From positions 1 to 38,940 of the forward strand of contig CALBFA010000110.1 in NCBI GenBank assembly GCA_937888365.1: a DNA stretch of 38,940 nucleotides, in the 5' to 3' direction. Positions 3,882-28,148 of the stretch are shown here, piece by piece. The notes beneath the pieces are model-generated. The model saw nothing but the letters and a program-made list of their open reading frames with translations, did no database searches and was not told where the DNA came from. The translations under genes were made by a program, and so were the position numbers. Position 1 is the stretch's first letter; every line of letters begins with the position of its first letter. The DNA comes from an uncultured Fidelibacterota bacterium. Lineage in GTDB: Bacteria; Fidelibacterota; UBA8477; JABMPR01.

Positions 3882-5810
3882 TTGGCAAAAAACACAGAAG
3901 CTCAACTTAAAAAGGAGCCCCCTAGCCGACCCGCGAAAACAATGGGCCCCGTTGACAATCTTGAACAACACTTGCATCCTGAATGGTGGAAAAGAATATT
4001 TAATGCCATTTATCTCAAAACCGATGCAGATGTCGTAGAAGATGATGTCATTACAAAAAATGAAATTGAATTATTTAAAACGATTCTTGGTCTAAAAAAT
4101 GGTGATTCCCTCCTCGATCTCGCATGTGGTCAGGGTCGTCACCTTATCGAATTAGGCCAGTGCGGTGAATTTAATCTTTTCGGCATTGACCGGTCTCGTT
4201 ACCTTATTCAACGCGGAAAAAGTGCCTCGCGAAAAAAAGGGCTTTCTATCAATTTTAAAGAAGGTGATGCCCGTAAACTTCCTTACAGTACCGACACGTT
4301 TGACTTTGTAACGATTCTTGGGAATAGTTTTGGTTACTTTGAAACATCCGAAGACGACCTGAAAATTTTAAAAGAAGTCTTTAGAATTCTAAAACCCAAC
4401 GGAAAATTATTAATGGATGTAGCCGATGGTGCATTTTTAAGAGATAATTTTACGGCGAGAAGCTGGGAATGGATTGATAAAAAATACTTTGTCTGTCGGG
4501 AACGCTCTCTTGCGTCGGATAACGAAAGACTCATTTCACGAGAGGTTGTCACTCATACAGAAAAGGGTGTTGTGGTCGATCAGTTTTATGCCGAACGACT
4601 TTACACCAAAGAAATTTTGGCCCAATTAATTGAGAATGTCGGCTTTAAAAATACAGAGTCCCATGGAAATCTTGCCGTCGACTCAATACGCAATCAAGAT
4701 TTAGGCATGATGGCGAATCGCTTTATTTTAACGACCTCCGCTGTAAAAGAATGGACGCCGAAAAAAAGTAAAAAGGCCATCAAGAATGTCGTTGTTATAT
4801 TAGGTGACCCAAAGCTAAAAGACATCATAAAACCTGATGCGAAATTTGACTCGGATGATTTCGAAACCATCGAAAAATTGAGAATTGCATTGAGCAAATT
4901 AGACAATTATAAGTTTAGCTATATTAATAATCATAGTACCGTTATCACGGATTTGCAGAAGCTGAAAGGCAAGGTTGATTTGGTTTTTAATCTATGTGAT
5001 GAAGGATTCGAAAATGACGCTAAAAAAGAATTGCACGTTCCGTCACTTTTGGAGATCATGCGGTTTCCTTATACGGGATCAAACCCGCAAACCCTTGCTT
5101 ATTGTTATGATAAATCGTTGATACGCGGAATCGCAACGGAAATTGGTGTCCCTGTCGCGGACGCATTTGTTATCACCGCTGAAGAGAATCTCTATGAACT
5201 CAATATTCCGTTCCCTGTTATTGCAAAACCGAATTTTGGCGATTCAAGTTTCGGCATTACACAAAAAAATGTCGCATATAGTATTGAAGAGCTCGCAAAT
5301 GCGATCCTTCAAATTCGAACACAATTTGACTATAATAATCCGATTTTAGTTGAAGAGTTTCTAACAGGTGCCGAAATATCTGTTGGCATAATTGGCAACT
5401 CAGACAATTATACGGTTCTACCTATTATTGAAGAAGATTACTCAGAATTGCCCGAAGGATTGCCTAAAATTTGCGGATATGAAGCGAAATGGATGACGGA
5501 TTCACCATACATGCAAACGCTGCGATCGATTCGGGCTTCGCTACCTCAAGCTGTCGAGCAGGAAGTTATAAATCATAGTCTAAAACTATTTAGACGCTTG
5601 GACTGCAAAGATTACTGTCGATTTGATTGGCGTCTCAATAGCCAAGGCGAGCCAAAATTGCTCGAAGTGAATCCTAACCCGGGATGGTGTTGGGACGGAC
5701 ATTTGGCCAAAATGAGCAGCCATGGCGGAATGGATTATTCTCAAATGCTCAACGCAATATTGTGTGCGGCTGAATTAAGAAATAACCCCGTTGGAGGAAA
5801 CGCTAACTAA
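3882..5810 (+). CDS. fusion of class I SAM methyltransferase and D-Ala-D-Ala-ligase-like ATP-grasp enzyme
   Basis: 642 residues from a TTG start with GGAG at 3873-3876. Residues about 40-295 are a Rossmann methyltransferase: motif I LLDLACGQG (Asp79, Gly83, Gly85), an acidic residue after GIDRS, and the post-motif stretch RILKPNGKLLMDV. Residues about 303-635 are an ATP-grasp ligase of the Ddl type, with VVVILGDP at the first strand, YTGSNPQTLAYCYDKSL, the nucleotide loop FPVIAKPNFGDSSFGI, ILVEEFLTGAEISVGI, and the metal-binding LLEVNPNPGW. Both halves look intact. ATP-grasp ligases of this group join a carboxylate to an amine through an acyl phosphate. The fused methyltransferase may modify the same substrate or product. 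The gene stands alone with no biosynthetic neighbours, so the product is unknown. Confidence 0.85.
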   Translation: MAKNTEAQLKKEPPSRPAKTMGPVDNLEQHLHPEWWKRIFNAIYLKTDADVVEDDVITKNEIELFKTILGLKNGDSLLDLACGQGRHLIELGQCGEFNLFGIDRSRYLIQRGKSASRKKGLSINFKEGDARKLPYSTDTFDFVTILGNSFGYFETSEDDLKILKEVFRILKPNGKLLMDVADGAFLRDNFTARSWEWIDKKYFVCRERSLASDNERLISREVVTHTEKGVVVDQFYAERLYTKEILAQLIENVGFKNTESHGNLAVDSIRNQDLGMMANRFILTTSAVKEWTPKKSKKAIKNVVVILGDPKLKDIIKPDAKFDSDDFETIEKLRIALSKLDNYKFSYINNHSTVITDLQKLKGKVDLVFNLCDEGFENDAKKELHVPSLLEIMRFPYTGSNPQTLAYCYDKSLIRGIATEIGVPVADAFVITAEENLYELNIPFPVIAKPNFGDSSFGITQKNVAYSIEELANAILQIRTQFDYNNPILVEEFLTGAEISVGIIGNSDNYTVLPIIEEDYSELPEGLPKICGYEAKWMTDSPYMQTLRSIRASLPQAVEQEVINHSLKLFRRLDCKDYCRFDWRLNSQGEPKLLEVNPNPGWCWDGHLAKMSSHGGMDYSQMLNAILCAAELRNNPVGGNAN

Positions 5811-17549: not shown

Positions 17550-19751
17550 TTATTTAAGCAGCATCACTTTCTGTGTGGACTGATAGTCAGAGGTTTTAAA
17601 TACGACAAAATACATCCCTGACGCCACATCGCTACCGTTCCATGTGAGTTCATATTGACCTCTATCTTGTTGACCTTGATATAGATTTTCAACGACTCGA
17701 CCACTCATGTCATAAATGACAACTGAAACATGTTCATGTTTGGCTAATGCATAGCGCAATGTAGTGCTGGGGTTAAAAGGGTTTGGATAGGCTGAAAGTA
17801 GAGATGTTTCCATAATCATCACTTCATCACTTTTTTCGATTTCGGCTTTATAAAGAACAAAGCCATCATCTGTCACATCTCTATCCATTTTAGCAAGCTT
17901 ATAGTGCTCTTTAAACATATTGTCATGCCCTATTGGGGTCCCATTGTCAGGAATACTTTTGGCTAAACCACCATCACGAACAATTTGGAATGAAAGATCG
18001 TCCATCGAGTCTGCACCATTGTATATTTGCATATAGACAGGAAAGCCCTTTGCGGGTTCTGCTGCAACACATTTATCGCCTATAAATGCAGCAATTTCAA
18101 TAACAGATTCAGGATCCGTAACGGTTTCAATCGTCAAAGCTGTATAGTCATCAAGCTCCTCGTACTGATATATTGTACCCTCTTTTGTCACACCTCGCAC
18201 AATACCGCCATTATAGTTGTAGGAAAAGTCTGTACTGGTTGATCCCGTATAATTCAGCTCGTACATTTGACCGTAGACAAACAATGGACAGCTCTCACTT
18301 GGCTCGGGTCCGTCACAACCTGAAGGCATTGCACCATACCACTGTGTTCCCTTTTTGTACATATACCAGTGTTGTCCTCGGATAGAAGAAATATTGTCTA
18401 AAACAGTGGCGGGTAATGCGTCGAAGGGTGATTGTGTTTCATTTACAAAATAGGAAACCCAGTTAATGCCAGGGGATAACGTAACACTTGCATCTTGTGC
18501 TATTTTGTCCCCAACAGTGTATAAGGGATATACCGCATATGTTTCAGCCATCCTCAATTTAACGCCTTGCTTGCTGTTAATGTTGATTGGAGAGGACCAT
18601 ACTCCATCTTGATAGCTTGAATTAACACCACCATTCAAAATAATTTGAAGCGCATCGGGAGCTACATTTTGCAGCACGTCGACAACATTAGTACCTTCAA
18701 TATCTCCTAATACTGGAAATCCCACCCAGTTCCAGCTGGAATGTAGAGTTTTTGTTTCTGCCATATCTTGATAAATGAAGTTATCATATACCTCTATATC
18801 TCCTATTCGAGGCAAGTAAACAAGTGTGCCATTTGGTATATTAACCCATGCACCAAAATTTTGACTGAGTGTCTCTTGAGAAGTGATTGTTTTTAAATGG
18901 AAAGATAAACCCTGTTGAGCATTTTCATAATCAGAGTCACAATAATATAGCGTATGCTGTAAGTCCACGTTATTGGATTCATTATTTTGAGCTTTACGAT
19001 ACCCCCAAATGGCCTCACCATTGGAAAAAAGAAAATTCAAACTCTCAGTAGAATGATTTATGATATTAGTAAAACTAGTAGATGAAAGTGCTTGATGAAT
19101 ACCTTGCAATATATCGCCATTGCTTTCCTCAACATTTTTCATAATCCAGAAGAAATAAAGTTCGGAATCTACAACATAGTCCAAATTATCTTCCCAAGCA
19201 CCATGACCAAAGGTTTGTAAGCCGCCATGATCGTTTATCCAATCTACGCCAATGATATTTTTTAATCCAACTTTGTCATTAATCGTCCCATTATGTGCAA
19301 AGGTATATGTAGCACCATTATATTCCATTATCCAGGGGTGTGGATCAGGAATACCTGTTGCACCAGAGCTAGACCTTCGAACATGTGCTAATATTGTTGT
19401 TGTATTTTGCCCTTCACCTATAAGTATATTTCTAGCATTAGAAAAACCTGAATTATACTCATTTGCTTGAACGGAACTGTTAAATTTCTCCATATACCTC
19501 GTGGTACCACTACCTAAATCTGAATAAAATAACATCCCCCAGCCATTTGGATGGTCATCATCACCTTGCCCTCTGAAATCATTAAGCTCCAAATATGTTC
19601 TTATTTGATTGCCATCATTTTCATTATTATTGCCACTTAATTCATAGCCAAAATCTGCTACAGAACCAAACAATCGACAGGCATAGACACTCTGATTTGT
19701 TATGAAAACGCTAATTAATAATAGAATCAATATTCTTTGAAAATTCTTCAT
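17550..19751 (-). CDS. secreted class-II glutamine amidotransferase-like protein with type IX sorting domain
   Basis: 733 residues with AAGGAG six bases before the ATG. A signal peptide (1-24) ends SVYA, and the next residue is Cys25 in CRLFG, which aligns with the N-terminal nucleophile of Ntn-type (class II, YafJ/EgtC-like) amidotransferases. Supporting motifs follow: HPNGWGM (67-73), ILAHVRRSSSG (Arg125), DPHPW (136-140), FAHNGTI (Asn154, Gly155, oxyanion hole) and a DSELYF stretch. After about residue 335 come two beta-sandwich-like repeats (SSWNWVGFPV and GINWVSYFV), then a type IX sorting domain: YPNPFNPSTTLRYAL, SGMYFVVF, terminal Lys. It should be a cell-surface or released amide hydrolase. 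No acceptor domain is present, so simple hydrolysis of an amide is likelier than amide transfer. The substrate is unknown. Confidence 0.85.
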   Translation of the reverse strand: MKNFQRILILLLISVFITNQSVYACRLFGSVADFGYELSGNNNENDGNQIRTYLELNDFRGQGDDDHPNGWGMLFYSDLGSGTTRYMEKFNSSVQANEYNSGFSNARNILIGEGQNTTTILAHVRRSSSGATGIPDPHPWIMEYNGATYTFAHNGTINDKVGLKNIIGVDWINDHGGLQTFGHGAWEDNLDYVVDSELYFFWIMKNVEESNGDILQGIHQALSSTSFTNIINHSTESLNFLFSNGEAIWGYRKAQNNESNNVDLQHTLYYCDSDYENAQQGLSFHLKTITSQETLSQNFGAWVNIPNGTLVYLPRIGDIEVYDNFIYQDMAETKTLHSSWNWVGFPVLGDIEGTNVVDVLQNVAPDALQIILNGGVNSSYQDGVWSSPININSKQGVKLRMAETYAVYPLYTVGDKIAQDASVTLSPGINWVSYFVNETQSPFDALPATVLDNISSIRGQHWYMYKKGTQWYGAMPSGCDGPEPSESCPLFVYGQMYELNYTGSTSTDFSYNYNGGIVRGVTKEGTIYQYEELDDYTALTIETVTDPESVIEIAAFIGDKCVAAEPAKGFPVYMQIYNGADSMDDLSFQIVRDGGLAKSIPDNGTPIGHDNMFKEHYKLAKMDRDVTDDGFVLYKAEIEKSDEVMIMETSLLSAYPNPFNPSTTLRYALAKHEHVSVVIYDMSGRVVENLYQGQQDRGQYELTWNGSDVASGMYFVVFKTSDYQSTQKVMLLK

Positions 19752-20069
19752 AAAAACTCCTTGTATTAGATTTAACTAACCTATGTACTGAAAAATATTC
19801 AATACTCCCATCGCTCTTTTCAAATCTAACACGTGTTCGCTCTGCTTTTGAGACATGTCCAATATAAGTTTTTTTTTTTTGCATACACAAGGTATTTTAG
19901 AAAACGGAATTAAACAAAAGTGTGCATTCTTTTTTACAGAAATAGCTCCAGAGACTTACCACACATTCTTATTGTATGACTGCATCAATCTTATATTTAG
20001 GTGTTTTTTGTTATAATTCTATTGGATTGGTAGAATTATAAGTTTATTTTCCAAACATGCAGAGTCAAA
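19752..20069 (+). other. divergent intergenic region upstream of the oxidase locus
   Basis: 318 bases between the secreted amidotransferase gene (leftward) and the Rrf2 gene (rightward). It contains a run of 12 T at 19869-19880 and the perfect inverted repeat at 20011-20041. I found no FNR-type TTGAT-N4-ATCAA site. Confidence 0.6.
20011..20041 (+). promoter_or_regulatory. putative operator: perfect 11-9-11 inverted repeat overlapping a -10 box
   Basis: TTATAATTCTA (20011-20021), 9-base spacer TTGGATTGG, TAGAATTATAA (20031-20041). The left arm contains TATAAT (20012-20017), a perfect -10 box, and the Rrf2 ATG is 28 bases downstream of the right arm. A dimeric repressor bound here would cover the promoter. 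The first gene of the locus encodes such a regulator, so autoregulation of the whole cbb3 operon is the natural inference. I cannot assign a good -35 box. Confidence 0.7.
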
Positions 20070-20546
20070 ATGCCATTTAAACTCAATAGCGCGAGTGAGT
20101 ACGCGATTCGACTCATTGTTTATTTATCTGAGCTAGACGTGGGTACAATTATCTCGGTAAAAGAAATTGCGAGGATACAAAATATCCCCGAAAAATTTCT
20201 CCACACCATTACAACTCAGCTCCAAAAATTAGATTACATCAACTCTTTTAAAGGAAAAGGTGGCGGGATTCAACTTGCGCGTGACGCTGGAGATATCACG
20301 ATGCTAGAGATAGTAGAAGCTTTGGAAGGCCCCATAAGTGTCAATGTGTGTACGGTCGATAATAGTGCATGTATTTTTTCCGACACGTGCTCTGTCCATT
20401 GCGTTTGGGACGATGTTCATACATCCATTAAACAGATTTTAAGCACGAAGACAATGGCAAGCCTCGCAGGGGAAAATCTTTTGGCGAGAAATAATCGCTT
20501 TCCCGGTTCAAAGGTTCAATCAGAAGTGAAATCTCATGGCAATTGA
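20070..20546 (+). CDS. Rrf2-family transcriptional regulator, probably Fe-S-binding
   Basis: 158 residues. The N-terminal winged helix is typical: KLNSASEYAIRLIVYLSE, then VKEIARIQNIPEKFLHTITTQLQKLDYINSFKGKGGGIQLAR, and the dimer helix with LEIVEALEGP. The sensor loop has Cys94, Cys101, Cys107 and Cys111 with His110, spaced C-x6-C-x5-C-x3-C, close to the three-cysteine ligand set of IscR and NsrR. It is therefore likely to hold a [2Fe-2S] or [4Fe-4S] cluster and sense oxygen, nitric oxide or iron status. Its last 11 bases overlap the first possible start of ccoI, so it is the first gene of the oxidase operon. A perfect inverted repeat lies upstream. Confidence 0.9.
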   Translation: MPFKLNSASEYAIRLIVYLSELDVGTIISVKEIARIQNIPEKFLHTITTQLQKLDYINSFKGKGGGIQLARDAGDITMLEIVEALEGPISVNVCTVDNSACIFSDTCSVHCVWDDVHTSIKQILSTKTMASLAGENLLARNNRFPGSKVQSEVKSHGN

Positions 20547-20583
20547 TATAAAACCGTATCAGCCCCTCAAAGAGGATGGCTCT

Positions 20584-22986
20584 ATGGGCGTGAGTGAAAA
20601 ACACTGCTTTCATTGCGGAGAGCATTGTTCGGACAATTCCATCCTTATCGGTGATAAATATTTTTGCTGCAATGGCTGTAAAGCTGTTTTCCAACTTTTG
20701 AACGGTAGCGACCTTTGCGAATATTATGAAATTGATAAAAAAGCTGGTATTACACCTAATATTGACATTGTAGAAGGTCGATTTTCATATCTTGATGACG
20801 AATCGATTACCAGCCAGCTTTTGGAATTTCGTGACGGAAAAATGAGTACCGTTACTTTTTCAACGCCAACAATGCATTGTGCGTCCTGTATATGGCTTTT
20901 AGAAAAATTGTATAGTTTGCACAAAGGTGTACTCAAATCCGTCGTTAATTTCCCTCGTAAAGAGGTGTCGATTACATTTAATCAAGAGCTGATTTCTTTA
21001 AGTGAATTAGCAGCGCTTTTGACGTCGATAGGCTACGAACCACAGATAAGTCTTGAGAGTATCGAATCGAAAGAGCGTTCGCATGTTCAACGGAAACTCT
21101 ATTATAAAATTGGTATTGCGGGATTTGCTTTCGGTAATGTCATGCTTTTAAGTTTCCCTGAATATATCAGTCGAACGGGTGAAGTTGACCCTATTTTCAA
21201 AATGGTTTTTGGTTATTTAAGTATTCTATTTTCACTGCCCGTTTTTTTCTATTCAGCCCTTGATTATTTTAAATCTGCTTGGGGTGGATTAAAGCAAAAA
21301 GACATCAATATTGATGTCCCCATAACCTTGGGCATTGGTATTTTATTTAGTCGTAGCGTCTATGAAATAATTTCTCAAACGGGGGCAGGTTACTTGGACT
21401 CTTTTACGGGTCTTGTTTTCTTTTTACTTATTGGTAAAGTGTTTCAACAAAAAACCTATGATGCATTATCGTTTGACAAAGACTATAAATCCTATTTCCC
21501 CCTCGCTATTACAAAACTTATTGATAAACATGAGACCATCGTCCCTGTTACAACTTTGGAAAAAGGGGATAGAATTTTGATGCGGAATCAGGAATTGATA
21601 CCTGCTGACGCCATACTCATGTCGCAAATATCCCATGTCGATTATAGTTTTGTTACAGGAGAAAGTGATCCCATCGAAAAAATGAATGGAGACATGATTT
21701 ATGCTGGCGGGCGACATATTGGGGCCGCTGTTGAAATGGAAATCCTCAAAGAGCCTTCTCAAAGTTATCTAACTCGACTTTGGAATAATGATATTTTTAC
21801 AAAATCACGACGTCCTCAATTATCAAAAAAAGTCGATGAACTTTCAAAATATTTTACGTTTTCAATTTTATTAATCGCCTTTTCAGCATTTGTTTACTGG
21901 TACTCTATTGATACGGCGATTGCTGTTAAGTCGTTTACGGCTGTTCTTATTGTGGCTTGTCCATGTGCATTGGCATTGTCCTCTCCTTTCGCGTTTGGAT
22001 CGGCCATGCGCATTTTTGCTAAACATCGTTTCTACATAAAAAATATAGAAAGCATTGAAGCACTAACTAAAATTGACACCATTGTTTTTGACAAAACGGG
22101 TACATTGACGCAATCCAATTTAGATTATATCGAGTTCAAAGGAGACATCCTTAATAAGGAGGAACAATCCTGGGTAAAATCGGTCGTTCGGCATTCAACG
22201 CATCCATTAAGCTTAAAAATTTTTGACGTGCTTAAAGATTCGAAATATTTCGGTATTTCCAATTTTGAAGAACAATTGGGAAAAGGATTGAAAGCGAAAG
22301 TCCAAAAACAAGAGATTATGCTTGGATCTGCAAAATGGATTGATACGAACATCGAAGGTGTTGATGTCGAAGCCAAAAAATCCCACGTCTTTTTATCCAT
22401 TAATGGCGATTACAAAGGATATTTCGCCATTTCACATCATTTTCGTCCAGGTTTACGGGATGTCATTTCAAATCTTTTTCGTGATTATTCCCTCTTCCTC
22501 CTTTCAGGAGATGTGAATCGAAGCCAAAGTGAGTTGGAGAATATTTTTGGAGGGAGTGATAAACTTGGCTTTGAAAAATCGCCTCAAGATAAAATGGACT
22601 TTATACAATCAATTCGAAGCGAAGGCAAAACTGTGCTTATGATTGGTGATGGTCTCAACGATGCCGGAGCTTTACAAGCCAGCGAAGTCGGTATCGCAAT
22701 TACAGATGATATTGGTTCGTTTTCCCCTGCATGCGATGCAATTTTGTCAGGAGATGAACTTCCCAATCTGTCCAAATTTTTACATTTTTCGAAAGCGACG
22801 ATGAATATTGTTCTCATAAGTTTTGGGATTTCAATACTTTATAATGTGATAGGAATTTCGTTTGCGGTGACGGGACATTTATCACCGCTAATATCGGCCA
22901 TCCTTATGCCTATTAGCTCGGTAACCGTCGTTGCTTTTACGACATTTGCAACTATTTTTAAAGCCAAGATGTTAAGGTTAAACTAA
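20584..22986 (+). CDS. ccoI: copper-translocating P-type ATPase for cbb3 oxidase assembly (CcoI/FixI type)
   Basis: 800 residues from ATG 20584, which has AGAGGA seven bases upstream. An in-frame ATG at 20536 overlaps the regulator gene and would add 16 residues. A Cys-rich N-terminal metal domain (CFHCGEHC, then FCCNGC) is followed by an HMA domain with CASC (Cys99, Cys102). The P1B core has TGES, the transmembrane Cys-Pro-Cys at 459-461 and the phosphorylation site DKTGTLT (Asp503), and it ends with GDGLNDAGAL. The N-terminal Cys-rich module is the mark of the CcoI/CopA2 group, which exports Cu+ slowly to the periplasm for the oxidase CuB centre. ccoS overlaps its stop (TAATG), confirming its role in cbb3 assembly. 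Confidence 0.95.
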   Translation: MGVSEKHCFHCGEHCSDNSILIGDKYFCCNGCKAVFQLLNGSDLCEYYEIDKKAGITPNIDIVEGRFSYLDDESITSQLLEFRDGKMSTVTFSTPTMHCASCIWLLEKLYSLHKGVLKSVVNFPRKEVSITFNQELISLSELAALLTSIGYEPQISLESIESKERSHVQRKLYYKIGIAGFAFGNVMLLSFPEYISRTGEVDPIFKMVFGYLSILFSLPVFFYSALDYFKSAWGGLKQKDINIDVPITLGIGILFSRSVYEIISQTGAGYLDSFTGLVFFLLIGKVFQQKTYDALSFDKDYKSYFPLAITKLIDKHETIVPVTTLEKGDRILMRNQELIPADAILMSQISHVDYSFVTGESDPIEKMNGDMIYAGGRHIGAAVEMEILKEPSQSYLTRLWNNDIFTKSRRPQLSKKVDELSKYFTFSILLIAFSAFVYWYSIDTAIAVKSFTAVLIVACPCALALSSPFAFGSAMRIFAKHRFYIKNIESIEALTKIDTIVFDKTGTLTQSNLDYIEFKGDILNKEEQSWVKSVVRHSTHPLSLKIFDVLKDSKYFGISNFEEQLGKGLKAKVQKQEIMLGSAKWIDTNIEGVDVEAKKSHVFLSINGDYKGYFAISHHFRPGLRDVISNLFRDYSLFLLSGDVNRSQSELENIFGGSDKLGFEKSPQDKMDFIQSIRSEGKTVLMIGDGLNDAGALQASEVGIAITDDIGSFSPACDAILSGDELPNLSKFLHFSKATMNIVLISFGISILYNVIGISFAVTGHLSPLISAILMPISSVTVVAFTTFATIFKAKMLRLN

Positions 22987-23207
22987 TGCATATTATGTTT
23001 TTACTTATGGGTTTTAGCCTTTTCGTTGCGACTGGTTTTCTTATCGCTTTTCTATGGGCGGTGCGTTCAGGACAATATGATGATAACTATACACCCTCCG
23101 TGCGAATGCTTTTTGACGATGGCGTTTCGAGTGATGTGTACGATAAACAGTTTTTTGGAGAGAAAACAAAAGAAGGAGAAAGAGTCAATGGAAATGGAAA
23201 AATTTAA
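22986..23207 (+). CDS. ccoS: cbb3-type oxidase assembly protein CcoS
   Basis: 73 residues. One N-terminal membrane helix (about 3-27) is followed by FLWAVRSGQYDD, the conserved CcoS stretch, and a charged tail. CcoS is needed to insert haem and copper into CcoN. Its ATG overlaps the ccoI stop, and its last 20 bases overlap the start of ccoNO, so three genes are translationally coupled. The tail beyond residue 50 is longer than in many homologues. Confidence 0.93.
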   Translation: MHIMFLLMGFSLFVATGFLIAFLWAVRSGQYDDNYTPSVRMLFDDGVSSDVYDKQFFGEKTKEGERVNGNGKI

Positions 23208-25317
23208 CTACGACAATTCGATCGTACGCATGTTTTTCATCGCCACTGTTGTTTGGAGTATCACCGCTTTTACCGTAGGTCTCACAATAGCTTTAGAGCT
23301 ACCATGGCCTGCATTAAACCTTGGTATATCTTGGATGACATTTGGTCGAATTCGTCCACTTCATACAAACGCAGCAATCTTTGCATTTGTAGGAAACGCG
23401 ATTTTTATGGGATATTATTATGCTATCCAACGTTTATTGAAAGCAAGGAACTTTAATGATACACTCTCAAAAATTCATTTTTGGGGATGGAATCTAATTA
23501 TCGTTGCTGCTGTTATTACCTTGCCTCTCGGTATTACGACAAGTAAAGAATATGCAGAATTAGAATGGCCAATTGATATCGCCATCACTTTAATATGGGT
23601 CGTTTGGGGCATCAACATGATTGGAACAATCATGAAACGCCGGGAAAAACATCTCTATGTGGCAATTTGGTTTTTTATCGCAACATTTTTTACGATCGCT
23701 GTTTTACATATCGGTAACTCGATGGAAATTCCAATTACATTGACAAAAAGCTACTCCCTTTATGCAGGTGTTCAAGATGCGCTTATACAGTGGTGGTATG
23801 GCCATAATGCTGTCGCATTTTTCCTTACAACGCCATTTTTGGGACTCATGTACTATTTCATGCCAAAAGCCGCACAGCGTCCTGTTTATAGCTATCGTCT
23901 GTCTATTGTTCACTTTTGGGCATTAATCTTTATCTATATTTGGGCCGGTCCTCACCATTTACTTTACACTTCAACACCAGACTGGGCACAAACATTAGGA
24001 ACTGTTTTCTCCGTTGTTCTCATAGCACCTTCCTGGGGTGGTATGTTAAACGGTCTTTTGACTCTACGTGGTGCTTGGGATAGAGTTCGTCAAGATCCTG
24101 TCCTCAAATTTATGGTCGTGGCCATTACCGCTTATGGTATGTCAACTTTCGAAGGCCCTATGCTTTCATTGAAGAATGTGAATGCCCTTTCCCACTTTAC
24201 GGATTGGACCATTGCGCATGTTCACGTCGGTGCACTCGGTTGGAATGGATTTTTTACGTTTGGTATGATTTATTGGCTCGTTCCACGTCTATATGGAACA
24301 AAATTATATTCCGTTAAATGGGCTAATTGGCATTTTTGGATTGGAACATTAGGTATCCTCTTCTGGGTTATTCCAATGTATTGGGCAGGCATTACGCAAG
24401 GTTTGATGTGGAAACAATTCACACCTGAAGGCAATATCATGTATCCGAACTTTTTAGAGACGGTTACTCAAATTATTCCTATGTATTGGATGCGTGCTTT
24501 TGGTGGAACGCTCTATTTATCAGGGGCTATTCTGATGGCTGTCAACGTTTTTAAAACAACGAAGCAAGGTACATTCATACCTGAAGAAGCAGCTGAAGCA
24601 GCACCCTTGGTTCTTAATCGTGAAGCCGAGACCACCACCGGTTATAAGCATCGTTGGATTGAAAGTCGTCCGATACAATTCTTTATTCTATCGACTGTTG
24701 TTATTTTAATTGGCGGACTTGTCGAAGCGATTCCACTATTTGTTGTTAAATCTAATATCCCAACGATCGAATCAGTAAAACCATATACGGCGCTTCAACT
24801 CACGGGTCGCGATATTTATATACGCGAAGGTTGTTATAACTGTCACTCACAAATGATACGACCTTTCCGTGATGAAGTTGCGCGTTATGGCGAATATTCA
24901 AAAGCGGGTGAATTTGTCTATGATCACCCATTCTTGTGGGGTTCAAAACGTACGGGACCCGATTTACTTCGCGAAGGCGCTGCAGGTCCATTGAAAAAAC
25001 CTGATGCGTGGCATTTTAGTCACATGAGAGATCCAAGAACGATGTCTCCAGGTTCGATAATGCCTCCTTATCCATGGCTCATTGAAAATGAAACTGATTA
25101 TAGCACAATCGGTGCAAAAATCTCAGGCCTTCGAAAAATTGGCGTCCCATATCCAGAAGGATATGAAGATAGAGCAATGGCGGATATTAAAGCCGATGCC
25201 CAGGTTATTGTTGGACACTTGAAGTCAAGTGGTGTCCAAACAACTTGGGATCGTGAAATTGTAGCAGTAATCGCCTATCTACAAGGACTAGGCGCCCATT
25301 TAGACACTGGTAAATAA
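23188..25317 (+). CDS. ccoNO: fused cbb3 cytochrome oxidase subunits I and II (CcoN-CcoO)
   Basis: 709 residues from ATG 23188, with GGAG at 23175-23178. The open frame extends upstream but that part is ccoS sequence in another frame. Residues 1 to about 470 are CcoN: haem-b and CuB ligands are visible in RPLHTNAAIFAF, WWYGHNAVAFF, AGPHHLLYTSTPDW and TIAHVHVGALGWNGF. A linker of about 35 residues leads to CcoO, with a TM anchor (FFILSTVVILIGGLVEAIPLF), a single c-type haem site CYNCH (549-553) and a methionine-containing MPPYPWL segment. Fusion of the two subunits is known in Bacteroidetes and relatives. This is the terminal oxidase, a high-affinity proton-pumping enzyme in the inner membrane. 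Confidence 0.96.
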   Translation: MEMEKFNYDNSIVRMFFIATVVWSITAFTVGLTIALELPWPALNLGISWMTFGRIRPLHTNAAIFAFVGNAIFMGYYYAIQRLLKARNFNDTLSKIHFWGWNLIIVAAVITLPLGITTSKEYAELEWPIDIAITLIWVVWGINMIGTIMKRREKHLYVAIWFFIATFFTIAVLHIGNSMEIPITLTKSYSLYAGVQDALIQWWYGHNAVAFFLTTPFLGLMYYFMPKAAQRPVYSYRLSIVHFWALIFIYIWAGPHHLLYTSTPDWAQTLGTVFSVVLIAPSWGGMLNGLLTLRGAWDRVRQDPVLKFMVVAITAYGMSTFEGPMLSLKNVNALSHFTDWTIAHVHVGALGWNGFFTFGMIYWLVPRLYGTKLYSVKWANWHFWIGTLGILFWVIPMYWAGITQGLMWKQFTPEGNIMYPNFLETVTQIIPMYWMRAFGGTLYLSGAILMAVNVFKTTKQGTFIPEEAAEAAPLVLNREAETTTGYKHRWIESRPIQFFILSTVVILIGGLVEAIPLFVVKSNIPTIESVKPYTALQLTGRDIYIREGCYNCHSQMIRPFRDEVARYGEYSKAGEFVYDHPFLWGSKRTGPDLLREGAAGPLKKPDAWHFSHMRDPRTMSPGSIMPPYPWLIENETDYSTIGAKISGLRKIGVPYPEGYEDRAMADIKADAQVIVGHLKSSGVQTTWDREIVAVIAYLQGLGAHLDTGK

Positions 25318-25523: not shown

Positions 25524-26174
25524 ATGGCGAAACAAATTTTAGATGAATTAATGGATCACGATTATGATGGTATCCAAGAATATGACAATGATTTACCACC
25601 ATGGTGGAAAAATCTATTTTTACTTACAGTCATTTTTGGGCTTGTGTATATATTTTATTACCATTTTTTTGGCGCCGGTAATTTGCAAGAAGCAGAATAC
25701 CTTGCGATGGTAAATAAGACTGAAGCAGCGACAGAAATGACATCAGGCGGTGGGATTGGTTATAAATCACCCTATTCGGGTGATAATGTTACGCAACGCA
25801 AAGCAAATACAGGTGATTTAGCGAGCGCTCCCACTCCCGAACCCGTTGCACAAACCTTTGCATTACTGACTGACGAGGCGAGTCGTAGAGCAGGAAAAGA
25901 AATATGGATTACAAATTGCTCTGTTTGCCATCTCGTAGATGGTGGAGGTATGATTGGACCTAATATGACGGATAATTATTGGATCCATGGTAACAAGATG
26001 GCGGATTTAATCAATACGATTAATGTGGGTGTCCTTACAAAAGGGATGACGCCATGGAAAGAGATTCTCAGTGATGAACAAATTCAACAAGTTTCTAGTT
26101 ACATTTTAAGTGACTTAGTTGGATCGACTCCTGCAGTTGCGAAAGGACCCCAAGGGACAAAATCAGAAGAATAA
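25524..26174 (+). CDS. ccoP: cbb3 cytochrome oxidase subunit III (CcoP), monohaem
   Basis: 216 residues with GGAGAT upstream of the ATG. The N-terminal DHDYDGIQEYDNDLPPWWKNLF is the diagnostic CcoP/FixP entry, followed by one membrane helix (residues about 32-52). After a Gly/Pro-rich linker comes one cytochrome c domain with CSVCH (132-136) and a Met in the MTPWKEIL segment. Classical proteobacterial CcoP carries two haem c groups; here there is only one, as in several Bacteroidetes. It passes electrons from soluble carriers to CcoO. A terminator follows 12 bases after the stop, closing the structural part of the operon. Confidence 0.95.
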   Translation: MAKQILDELMDHDYDGIQEYDNDLPPWWKNLFLLTVIFGLVYIFYYHFFGAGNLQEAEYLAMVNKTEAATEMTSGGGIGYKSPYSGDNVTQRKANTGDLASAPTPEPVAQTFALLTDEASRRAGKEIWITNCSVCHLVDGGGMIGPNMTDNYWIHGNKMADLINTINVGVLTKGMTPWKEILSDEQIQQVSSYILSDLVGSTPAVAKGPQGTKSEE

Positions 26175-26231: not shown

Positions 26232-26268
26232 GTTGTATTTTTAAGTACATGCAGAAAGGCACATATTG

Positions 26269-27687
26269 ATGGATAGCAAGGACAATCTCAAACTCGCAAA
26301 TCAAGATTCTGCAGGATATAGAGATAGAGTCGCTACTATAGACGAAGACGGCAAACGAACGTGGATATACCCTAAAAAACCCAAAGGTAAATATTATAAC
26401 TACCGAACATGGCTTTCCTATGTTCTCTTATTTTTAATGTTTGCGGGACCTTTCATGAGAGTCAATAGTCAACCTGTTCTTCTGTTAAATATTTTAGAAC
26501 GAAAATTCATTATTCTGGGGATGGCTTTTTGGCCACAAGATTTTCATTTATTCGTCATAGCCATGATTACAGGCGTGGTTGCGATACTACTCTTTACATC
26601 TATTTTTGGTCGCCTTTTTTGCGGCTGGGTCTGCCCTCAAACCGTCTTTATGGAAATGCTCTTTCGAAAAATAGAATACTTTATAGAAGGCGATGCCAGC
26701 AATCAACGCAAACTTGATAGGCAAGCTTTAAACATTGAAAAAATCTTTAAAAAAACTATCAAACATGTCATCTTTTTTGCCTTATCTTTTTTAATCGGAA
26801 ATACGCTTTTAGCCTACATCATTGGCTCTGATGAACTTATTCATATCATTACTGACCCTATCAATAGTCATATGCAAGGGCTAATGGTCATGATGCTATT
26901 TTCCCTCGCATTCTACTATGTATTTAGCCAATTTAGAGAACAAGCCTGCACAATGGTGTGCCCCTATGGACGTTTCCAATCAGTATTATTAGATGACCGA
27001 TCCATCGTTATTTCCTATGATTTCGTGCGCGGCGAACCTCGTGGAAAATTGGAAAAGCATCCCAATAGTGAGAAAGGGGACTGCATCGATTGCGGTCACT
27101 GTATCGACGTCTGTCCAACGGGAATTGATATTCGCAATGGTACTCAACTAGAATGCGTAAATTGCACGGCCTGTATGGATGCCTGTGATAATATCATGAC
27201 CAAAATAGGTCGCGAACCAAACCTTATTCGTTACGCGTCATCTTATGGCATCGAAACAGGTGAGACCAAAATAATGACGTCCCGCGCATACGGCTATTCG
27301 GCTATTCTCATCATACTTATTGCGGTCCTCTCTCTATTGCTTTTTACTCGCTCTGATGTGGAAGCCTCCATCCTAAGAGCAGCAGGTTCGTTATATTATG
27401 AATTGCCAAGCAAGGTTATTCGCAATTTATATACGGTTAAAGTCGTTAATAAAACCTTTGATGTCATGCCGATTCGTTTTGAACTCGCCGAACCCGAAGG
27501 AAACATTGTTATCCAAGGAAATGCTATTATAGTTGAGCCTCAACAAATTGGGAAAGGTCAATTTTTTGTTGATTTAAAACATCAAGAACTTACAGGCTAC
27601 CGAACAACAATTGTCATAGATGTCTTTTTTGGAGATCGTAAAATTGAAACCGTTCATACAAACTTCATGGGACCCGAAAACGAATGA
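26269..27687 (+). CDS. ccoG: cytochrome oxidase accessory protein CcoG/FixG (ferredoxin-like)
   Basis: 472 residues from ATG 26269, with AAAGG at 26255-26259. A TTG one codon earlier is less likely. Several membrane helices surround CGWVCPQTVFMEMLFRKIEY and the CTMVCPYGRFQ segment. A cytoplasmic 2x[4Fe-4S] ferredoxin domain follows with CIDCGHCIDVCPTG and CVNCTACMDACD. The C-terminal ~110 residues are an Ig-like domain typical of CcoG. The protein is a cupric reductase that supplies Cu+ for oxidase assembly. It starts 38 bases after the terminator hairpin, and its stop overlaps ccoH (ATGA). Confidence 0.95.
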   Translation: MDSKDNLKLANQDSAGYRDRVATIDEDGKRTWIYPKKPKGKYYNYRTWLSYVLLFLMFAGPFMRVNSQPVLLLNILERKFIILGMAFWPQDFHLFVIAMITGVVAILLFTSIFGRLFCGWVCPQTVFMEMLFRKIEYFIEGDASNQRKLDRQALNIEKIFKKTIKHVIFFALSFLIGNTLLAYIIGSDELIHIITDPINSHMQGLMVMMLFSLAFYYVFSQFREQACTMVCPYGRFQSVLLDDRSIVISYDFVRGEPRGKLEKHPNSEKGDCIDCGHCIDVCPTGIDIRNGTQLECVNCTACMDACDNIMTKIGREPNLIRYASSYGIETGETKIMTSRAYGYSAILIILIAVLSLLLFTRSDVEASILRAAGSLYYELPSKVIRNLYTVKVVNKTFDVMPIRFELAEPEGNIVIQGNAIIVEPQQIGKGQFFVDLKHQELTGYRTTIVIDVFFGDRKIETVHTNFMGPENE

Positions 27688-28148
27688 TAAACTGGATCAA
27701 AAATAACTTTTGGCCGTGGGGCATTGTATCCTTTCTGGTCATATTTATGTCTTTTTTTATTGGGTTCGCAATTTGGACTTTTAGTCTGCCTATAAATTTG
27801 GTCGAATCTGAGTACTATGAAAAGGGCCAAGATTATCAACAACAAATTGATATAGAAAATCGAACCTCAGGTCTTCCTTTGAAACCAGTTTTTCAATTTA
27901 ATGGCGAAAGCAATCAACTTAATGTGCAATTCCCCTCTGCGTTAATCCCAGAATTTCAATCTGGCGAAATCATTTTTTATTATCCCGCAGATGGTAGGCA
28001 GGATATCAAGTCAAAAGTCGAATTGTCTTCAACTGGCAACGCTCAATTCAATCTTAATTCCCTCAAAAAAGGCCCTTGGATTGCTAAATTTAAATGGGTC
28101 ATGAATGAAACAGACTATTTTATGAGCCATCATATACTTGTTAACTAA
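27684..28148 (+). CDS. ccoH: FixH/CcoH family protein
   Basis: 154 residues. WPWGIVSFLVIFMSFFIGFAI is the single N-terminal membrane helix, followed by the family motif LVESEYYEKGQDYQQQID and a periplasmic beta-domain. FixH/CcoH is a component of the cbb3 assembly complex and interacts with CcoI and CcoN. The start overlaps the ccoG stop by four bases, so the pair is coupled. Confidence 0.9.
   Translation: MINWIKNNFWPWGIVSFLVIFMSFFIGFAIWTFSLPINLVESEYYEKGQDYQQQIDIENRTSGLPLKPVFQFNGESNQLNVQFPSALIPEFQSGEIIFYYPADGRQDIKSKVELSSTGNAQFNLNSLKKGPWIAKFKWVMNETDYFMSHHILVN

Follow-up and report, generated by a model that had tools for sequence, protein, structure and literature searches.

Control of cbb3 oxidases is mainly of the Fnr/FixK and two-component types, and in the literature we searched no description of a dedicated Rrf2 regulator of such an oxidase was found. 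In Geobacter sulfurreducens an rrf2 gene is paired with cydAB (GSU1639-1641; PMC7726332). RsrR of Streptomyces venezuelae has an 11-3-11 inverted repeat at its own promoter, where a block to RNA polymerase has been proposed, and this 11-3-11 arrangement (14 bp) is said to characterise full-length Rrf2 sites (PMC5015018). At the protein level, recognition-helix residues S40, E43 and Q44 of IscR bind the major groove, with E43 setting specificity, and the residues of note in S. coelicolor NsrR are D8 and R12 (PMC5411485); position 43 is decisive in Salmonella NsrR too (PMC10783083).

The window, by which we mean the whole stretch of 38,940 nucleotides analysed here, makes up the whole of contig G000:C110 in a genome of 2.53 Mb and 95% completeness from an uncultured Fidelibacterota bacterium, and carries a perfect inverted repeat ahead of an rrf2 gene that heads a cbb3 operon. 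On balance we think it probable that the repeat is the autoregulatory Rrf2 operator of that operon, a reading for which we infer binding, repression, promoter position and signal.

The rrf2-cco operon

The repeat stands in a spacer of 318 bp (19752-20069; 30% G+C) between divergent ORFs. Behind it the gene order is rrf2-ccoI-ccoS-ccoNO-ccoP-ccoG, then ccoH, with overlaps joining the first four genes, and Pfam/NCBIfam confirm the calls of Rrf2, the CcoI-type P-ATPase and the cbb3 subunits.

20070..20546, + strand: rrf2, winged-helix regulator of 158 aa (Pfam/NCBIfam, alignment)
20536..22986, + strand: ccoI-type copper P-ATPase (ATPase-cat_bd, HMA and E1-E2 ATPase), overlapping rrf2 by 11 bp
22986..23207, + strand: ccoS/FixS, 73 aa (PF03597, 72.8 bits against a cut-off of 23.1)
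23188..25317, + strand: fused ccoNO (COX1 and FixO), with the ATG at 23188 as its start
25524..26174, + strand: ccoP (FixP_N and cytochrome c, from domain matches)
26266..27687, + strand: ccoG/FixG-type assembly protein (domain match)
27684..28148, + strand: ccoH/FixH

The ccoS gene, too short for inclusion in the first ORF list, bridges its two neighbours, sharing 1 bp with ccoI and about 20 bp with the start of ccoNO. The TTG start at 23026 listed for ccoNO is probably wrong; because the ORF from that position overlaps ccoS and homology starts at its residue 54-60, the start at 23188 is likelier. Since rrf2, ccoI, ccoS and ccoNO overlap, one promoter ahead of rrf2 would serve the oxidase, and a single transcript from upstream of rrf2 is likely.

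The divergent neighbour (17550-19751, - strand) encodes a protein that combines a class-II glutamine amidotransferase domain with a type IX sorting tail. That protein has an apparent signal peptide, and the mature protein would start CRLFG, so that cleavage of the signal peptide could expose a catalytic N-terminal cysteine. Elsewhere in the window, the single ORF 3882-5810 encodes both a methyltransferase domain and a D-Ala-D-Ala-ligase-like ATP-grasp domain.

The inverted repeat and candidate promoters

Three features of the spacer bear on transcription of the operon.

20011..20041, no strand: perfect 11-9-11 inverted repeat, arms 20011-20021 and 20031-20041, candidate autoregulatory operator (sequence, copy search, shuffles)
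20008..20036, + strand: best-scoring promoter-like site, TTGTTA (20008-20013), 17 bp, TAGAAT (20031-20036), with TGn before the second hexamer (consensus scan)
20012..20017, + strand: TATAAT, the hexamer picked in the initial annotation, with no -35 match at 16-18 bp

Both the coordinates and the sequence of the repeat given in the initial annotation are exact: the 31 bp read TTATAATTCTA-TTGGATTGG-TAGAATTATAA, and each arm is itself a near-palindrome around AATT. Its downstream end lies 28 bp from the rrf2 start codon, and its centre 44 bp upstream of that codon.

Genome-wide work consisted of pattern searches together with sampled stretches (214 kb). With 0-3 mismatches allowed, the repeat is single-copy in the window and the 2.53-Mb genome, and looser repeat patterns gave matches in this genome at 3 mismatches, near the reversed-control level. 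Across 245 Neomarinimicrobiota genomes, no match to the repeat with two or fewer mismatches was found besides the window's own, and 3-mismatch matches occurred at about the control frequency. The genome-wide search that had been suggested for further sites thus returned one copy, and a single copy provides no regulon on which a motif could be built; the site, if functional, would be dedicated to one operon.

The claim that the repeat sits on a -10 box stands in so far as the repeat lies across a plausible promoter, but the TATAAT then chosen lacks a -35 partner. TTGTTA-N17-TAGAAT is the sole consensus-scoring + strand promoter in our scan, with both hexamers in or at the repeat arms, and it is more plausibly this site than TATAAT that the repeat covers; the predicted transcription start would fall near 20041-20043. 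Since such consensus matches turned up about as often as in shuffles (3 against an expected 2.3) and we know of no characterised promoters from the window's phylum, the promoter position is one that we infer. A protein sitting on the repeat would block polymerase with either candidate.

A different dyad in the sister genus

We searched 60 relatives, none from the window's own genus, with the window Rrf2 protein; a single-sequence search of genome contigs gave no match, whereas one based on an alignment put names to the phylum and the sister loci. The named matches among the nearest Rrf2 relatives, on the very contigs of the sister-genus genomes, are without exception 'Candidatus Neomarinimicrobiota', which places the window's genome in that phylum. 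In 15 sister-genus genomes an Rrf2 orthologue (41-50% identity) lies directly ahead of ccoI, and almost all loci whose stretch is long enough to show it have ccoNO as the following gene. The repeat is absent upstream of rrf2-ccoI in all 15. The initial annotation had read the repeat as possibly a new Rrf2 operator type, and had named footprinting at orthologous rrf2-ccoI loci as the check and lack of conservation as the outcome that would speak against it; that is the outcome here, with a different dyad in place of the repeat. A sequence unconserved at orthologous loci cannot define a general operator type and, since the spacing also departs from the 11-3-11 criterion (11-9-11 in the window), what is left is a candidate operator at one locus rather than a new type.

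The element that the sister loci do share (L003-L017, 15 of 15; for example around L009:1380-1420) spans 45 bp, AAcAtCACTAwTTnCATGGCATTTGARnTGTTcaanaTTAtTTTg, and is centred 80-132 bp upstream of the rrf2 start codon; the fifteenth locus, L007, has TACTAATTGCATGGCATTTGAATTGTT in the element. Its dyad core, AAcAtCACTAwTTnCATGGCATTTGARnTGTT, is strongly conserved. Around CATG, the 34 central columns score 9.18 of 17 for dyad symmetry (column-permutation p = 0.00045), and with every centre allowed none of 2000 permutations did as well. At 0-1 mismatch the core occurs once per genome, at the rrf2-ccoI locus, in 11 of the 11 genomes searched, one of which has an extra match at 2 mismatches. The element thus looks like the operator of a dedicated autoregulator, for which it is a candidate, and its presence at this locus, and almost nowhere else, in all 11 genomes suggests that a dedicated dyad at the cbb3 operon is the rule in this family. 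The conserved sister-genus dyad is the more solid regulatory finding and the better-supported operator candidate of the two. We considered whether the element might be a small leader ORF (ATG GCA TTT GAA ...), and dropped this because the stop position and length vary.

The sister motif was not found in the window, matched the window's own genome at 3 mismatches only (control level), and in a profile scan of the window spacer did no better than in shuffles. By eye, the window arm TAGAATTAT shares 7-8 of 11 letters with the sister half-site TTGAATTRT in some members, a kinship that the profile scan does not support. The two dyads are of similar size (31 bp in the window, 32-34 bp in the sister genus), and each is a single-locus element ahead of this cbb3 operon. 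The window repeat could plausibly be the sister dyad's counterpart, diverged in sequence.

Beyond these genera, an Ignavibacteriales contig (L081:2316-5125) has an Rrf2 gene, 43% identical, directly ahead of cydAB. The encoded protein carries R45, and the sister element is weakly matched (shuffle p ~0.01) 47 bp upstream of the start codon, beside a TTGACA-type -35. The weak match and R45 together would make the sister element the older form, for which one sequence is too few.

The Rrf2 protein

The window protein passes the cut-offs for the Rrf2 domain (PF02082, 115.3 bits against 30; TIGR00738, 110.5 against 73.3). Residues C94, C101, C107 and H110 are invariant in alignment A1 (eight aligned orthologues), and the cluster ligands of IscR are C92/C98/C104/H107, the C3H set, which the window residues match. 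This places the protein in the three-cysteine Fe-S subgroup, with a cluster predicted, and the initial annotation was right that an Rrf2 gene with Fe-S cysteines heads a cbb3 operon. With the NCBIfam equivalog models for IscR, NsrR, RirA and CymR it scores 47-65 bits against cut-offs of 110-275, outside all four.

To place the recognition helix we mapped IscR numbering through an alignment with CymR, whose helix there reads YLEQL, which we take to be the IscR reading also. The window protein carries K42, H45 and T46, of which K42 and H45 align with the base-reading S40 and E43 of IscR. All 15 sister-genus orthologues have R42 and R45, with T or S at 46, and the wider relatives L018-L026 have R at 45 as well. 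The window protein is thus the exception at exactly those positions that would be expected to change with a new site, a correlation drawn from one species and a metagenome-assembled contig; K42/H45 in place of R42/R45 is a protein change that fits the changed site.

The genome also encodes separate Rrf2 paralogues, one adjoining sufB, so that control of Fe-S biogenesis need not rest on the operon Rrf2, leaving it free for respiration. A second paralogue (L087:2595-3002; G000:C68) lies directly upstream of what by eye is a transketolase/pyruvate-dehydrogenase E1-like gene, and paralogues resembling it (36-41% identity) occur throughout the sister genus.

Explanations for the repeat

In the autoregulatory reading, which we favour, an Rrf2 dimer would bind both arms of the repeat and cover the promoter, probably TTGTTA-N17-TAGAAT, shutting RNA polymerase out and repressing its own operon. 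Alteration or loss of the Fe-S cluster, through O2, NO or iron status, would release the protein from DNA and allow expression of rrf2-ccoI-ccoS-ccoNO and the following cco genes. The switch would serve one operon only, and its operator sequence and the recognition helix would have diverged together from their sister-genus forms. The dedicated sister-genus dyad before the same genes makes an operator at the window locus credible, that dyad being likewise a putative Rrf2 site. Several findings count against this reading: none of the 15 orthologous loci has the repeat; the sister element is centred 80-132 bp from the start codon, as against 44 bp for the repeat, and the window spacer holds no match to it; the repeat has no second copy and so no supporting regulon; its arms are 20 bp apart centre to centre, wider than the 14 bp of RsrR; and the promoter match is no better than background.

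The explanation that survives best beside it, doubtful in our view and still to be taken seriously, is that the repeat arose by chance in AT-rich promoter DNA, its 11 pairs being an accident of -10-like hexamers that lie on both strands (TATAAT/TAGAAT), with the real site elsewhere or absent. When the 318-bp spacer was shuffled with its dinucleotides preserved, 7 of 1500 shuffles held a perfect repeat whose arms were 11 or longer and whose loop was 0-20; the analytic expectation is 0.0076. The chance for its own spacer is ~0.5% (p ~0.005), unusual and not overwhelming, and the description of the repeat as very unlikely by chance holds at this level, for a single spacer and before correction for the many spacers that a reader sees. 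With hundreds of spacers per genome, and many features from which a reader may choose, such a figure is not negligible; the missing conservation in orthologues points the same way, and arms near-palindromic around AATT make inverted matches easier to come by. Against chance, 214 kb of this genome yielded 14 perfect repeats whose arms reach 11 or more, the majority of them terminator-like, and by inspection the window repeat and one 28-bp palindrome are the only AT-rich ones in a promoter region. The repeat also stands where an operator would be expected, ahead of a regulator gene whose family is known to autoregulate. The palindrome, TTGCTAATTATTAATTAATAATTAGCAA, is perfect, lies at L093:12209-12236 (G000:C103:32209-32236), ~240 bp ahead of a TonB-dependent-receptor-like gene, and is a possible operator itself.

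It is unlikely that the repeat is the operator of a regulator other than the adjacent Rrf2, such as Fur-family PerR, whose box is TTATAAT-n-ATTATAA (7-1-7). The repeat does begin with TTATAAT and end with ATTATAA, and several regulators often act on one terminal oxidase operon; the spacing here, however, is 7-17-7, and global regulators usually have many sites, whereas this one has a single genomic copy.

We give little credence to the repeat working in RNA as a 5'-leader hairpin (an attenuator or stability element). The transcribed strand could form the stem, but folding of the leader is only slightly above shuffles (z = -1.55; 18 of 200 fold equally well), there is no Rfam match, and the left arm would lie upstream of the transcription start with either promoter candidate, so that the full hairpin would go untranscribed. 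An intrinsic terminator or mobile-element remnant, to which a perfect inverted repeat in a spacer might otherwise point, is already counted wrong by the context: there is one G-C pair per 11-bp stem and no terminator-like site was found, the flanking genes diverge so that no transcript is expected to end there, and the genome holds a single copy.

If the repeat is the operator of its own Rrf2 gene, we suggest, tentatively and as the less probable extension of that reading, that the pairing of regulator with operator was readjusted between the two genera, R42/R45 with the CATG-centred core in one and K42/H45 with TTATAATTCTA-N9-TAGAATTATAA in the other, as a dedicated single-target cbb3 switch in which both sites (31-34 bp) are wider than the 25-bp RsrR site. 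Overall, what the initial annotation observed is confirmed and its interpretation partly supported. If true, the locus would represent a self-contained switch for low-oxygen respiration in an uncultured marine phylum, and would offer a natural pair of regulator/operator variants, differing at two residues and each with its own short DNA site, for testing how Rrf2 specificity changes.

Comparison with described systems

With IscR of E. coli the window protein shares the Rrf2 fold, three cysteines with a histidine three positions past the third, and a regulator gene at the head of an operon that it controls (in the window, putatively). It differs in a first inter-cysteine loop one residue longer, in H45 for E43, and in an NCBIfam IscR score of 63.6 against a cut-off of 207.6; moreover, the window rrf2 stands beside cbb3 rather than isc/suf genes, and its candidate operator is unrelated in sequence to the type 1 and type 2 sites of IscR. 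NsrR belongs to the same family, and an alignment by eye places E10 and R14 of the window protein at the positions of D8 and R12, but the NsrR model score (61.8 against 182), the site sequence and its spacing all differ. RsrR offers the likeness of an Rrf2 protein with an 11-n-11 inverted repeat at its own promoter, whereas its loop is 3 and its genomic sites are many, against a loop of 9 and one site here, and the sequences differ. In the rrf2-cydAB pairs, as in the window, an Rrf2 gene lies directly before a high-affinity terminal oxidase, which is a bd quinol oxidase there and a cbb3 oxidase here.
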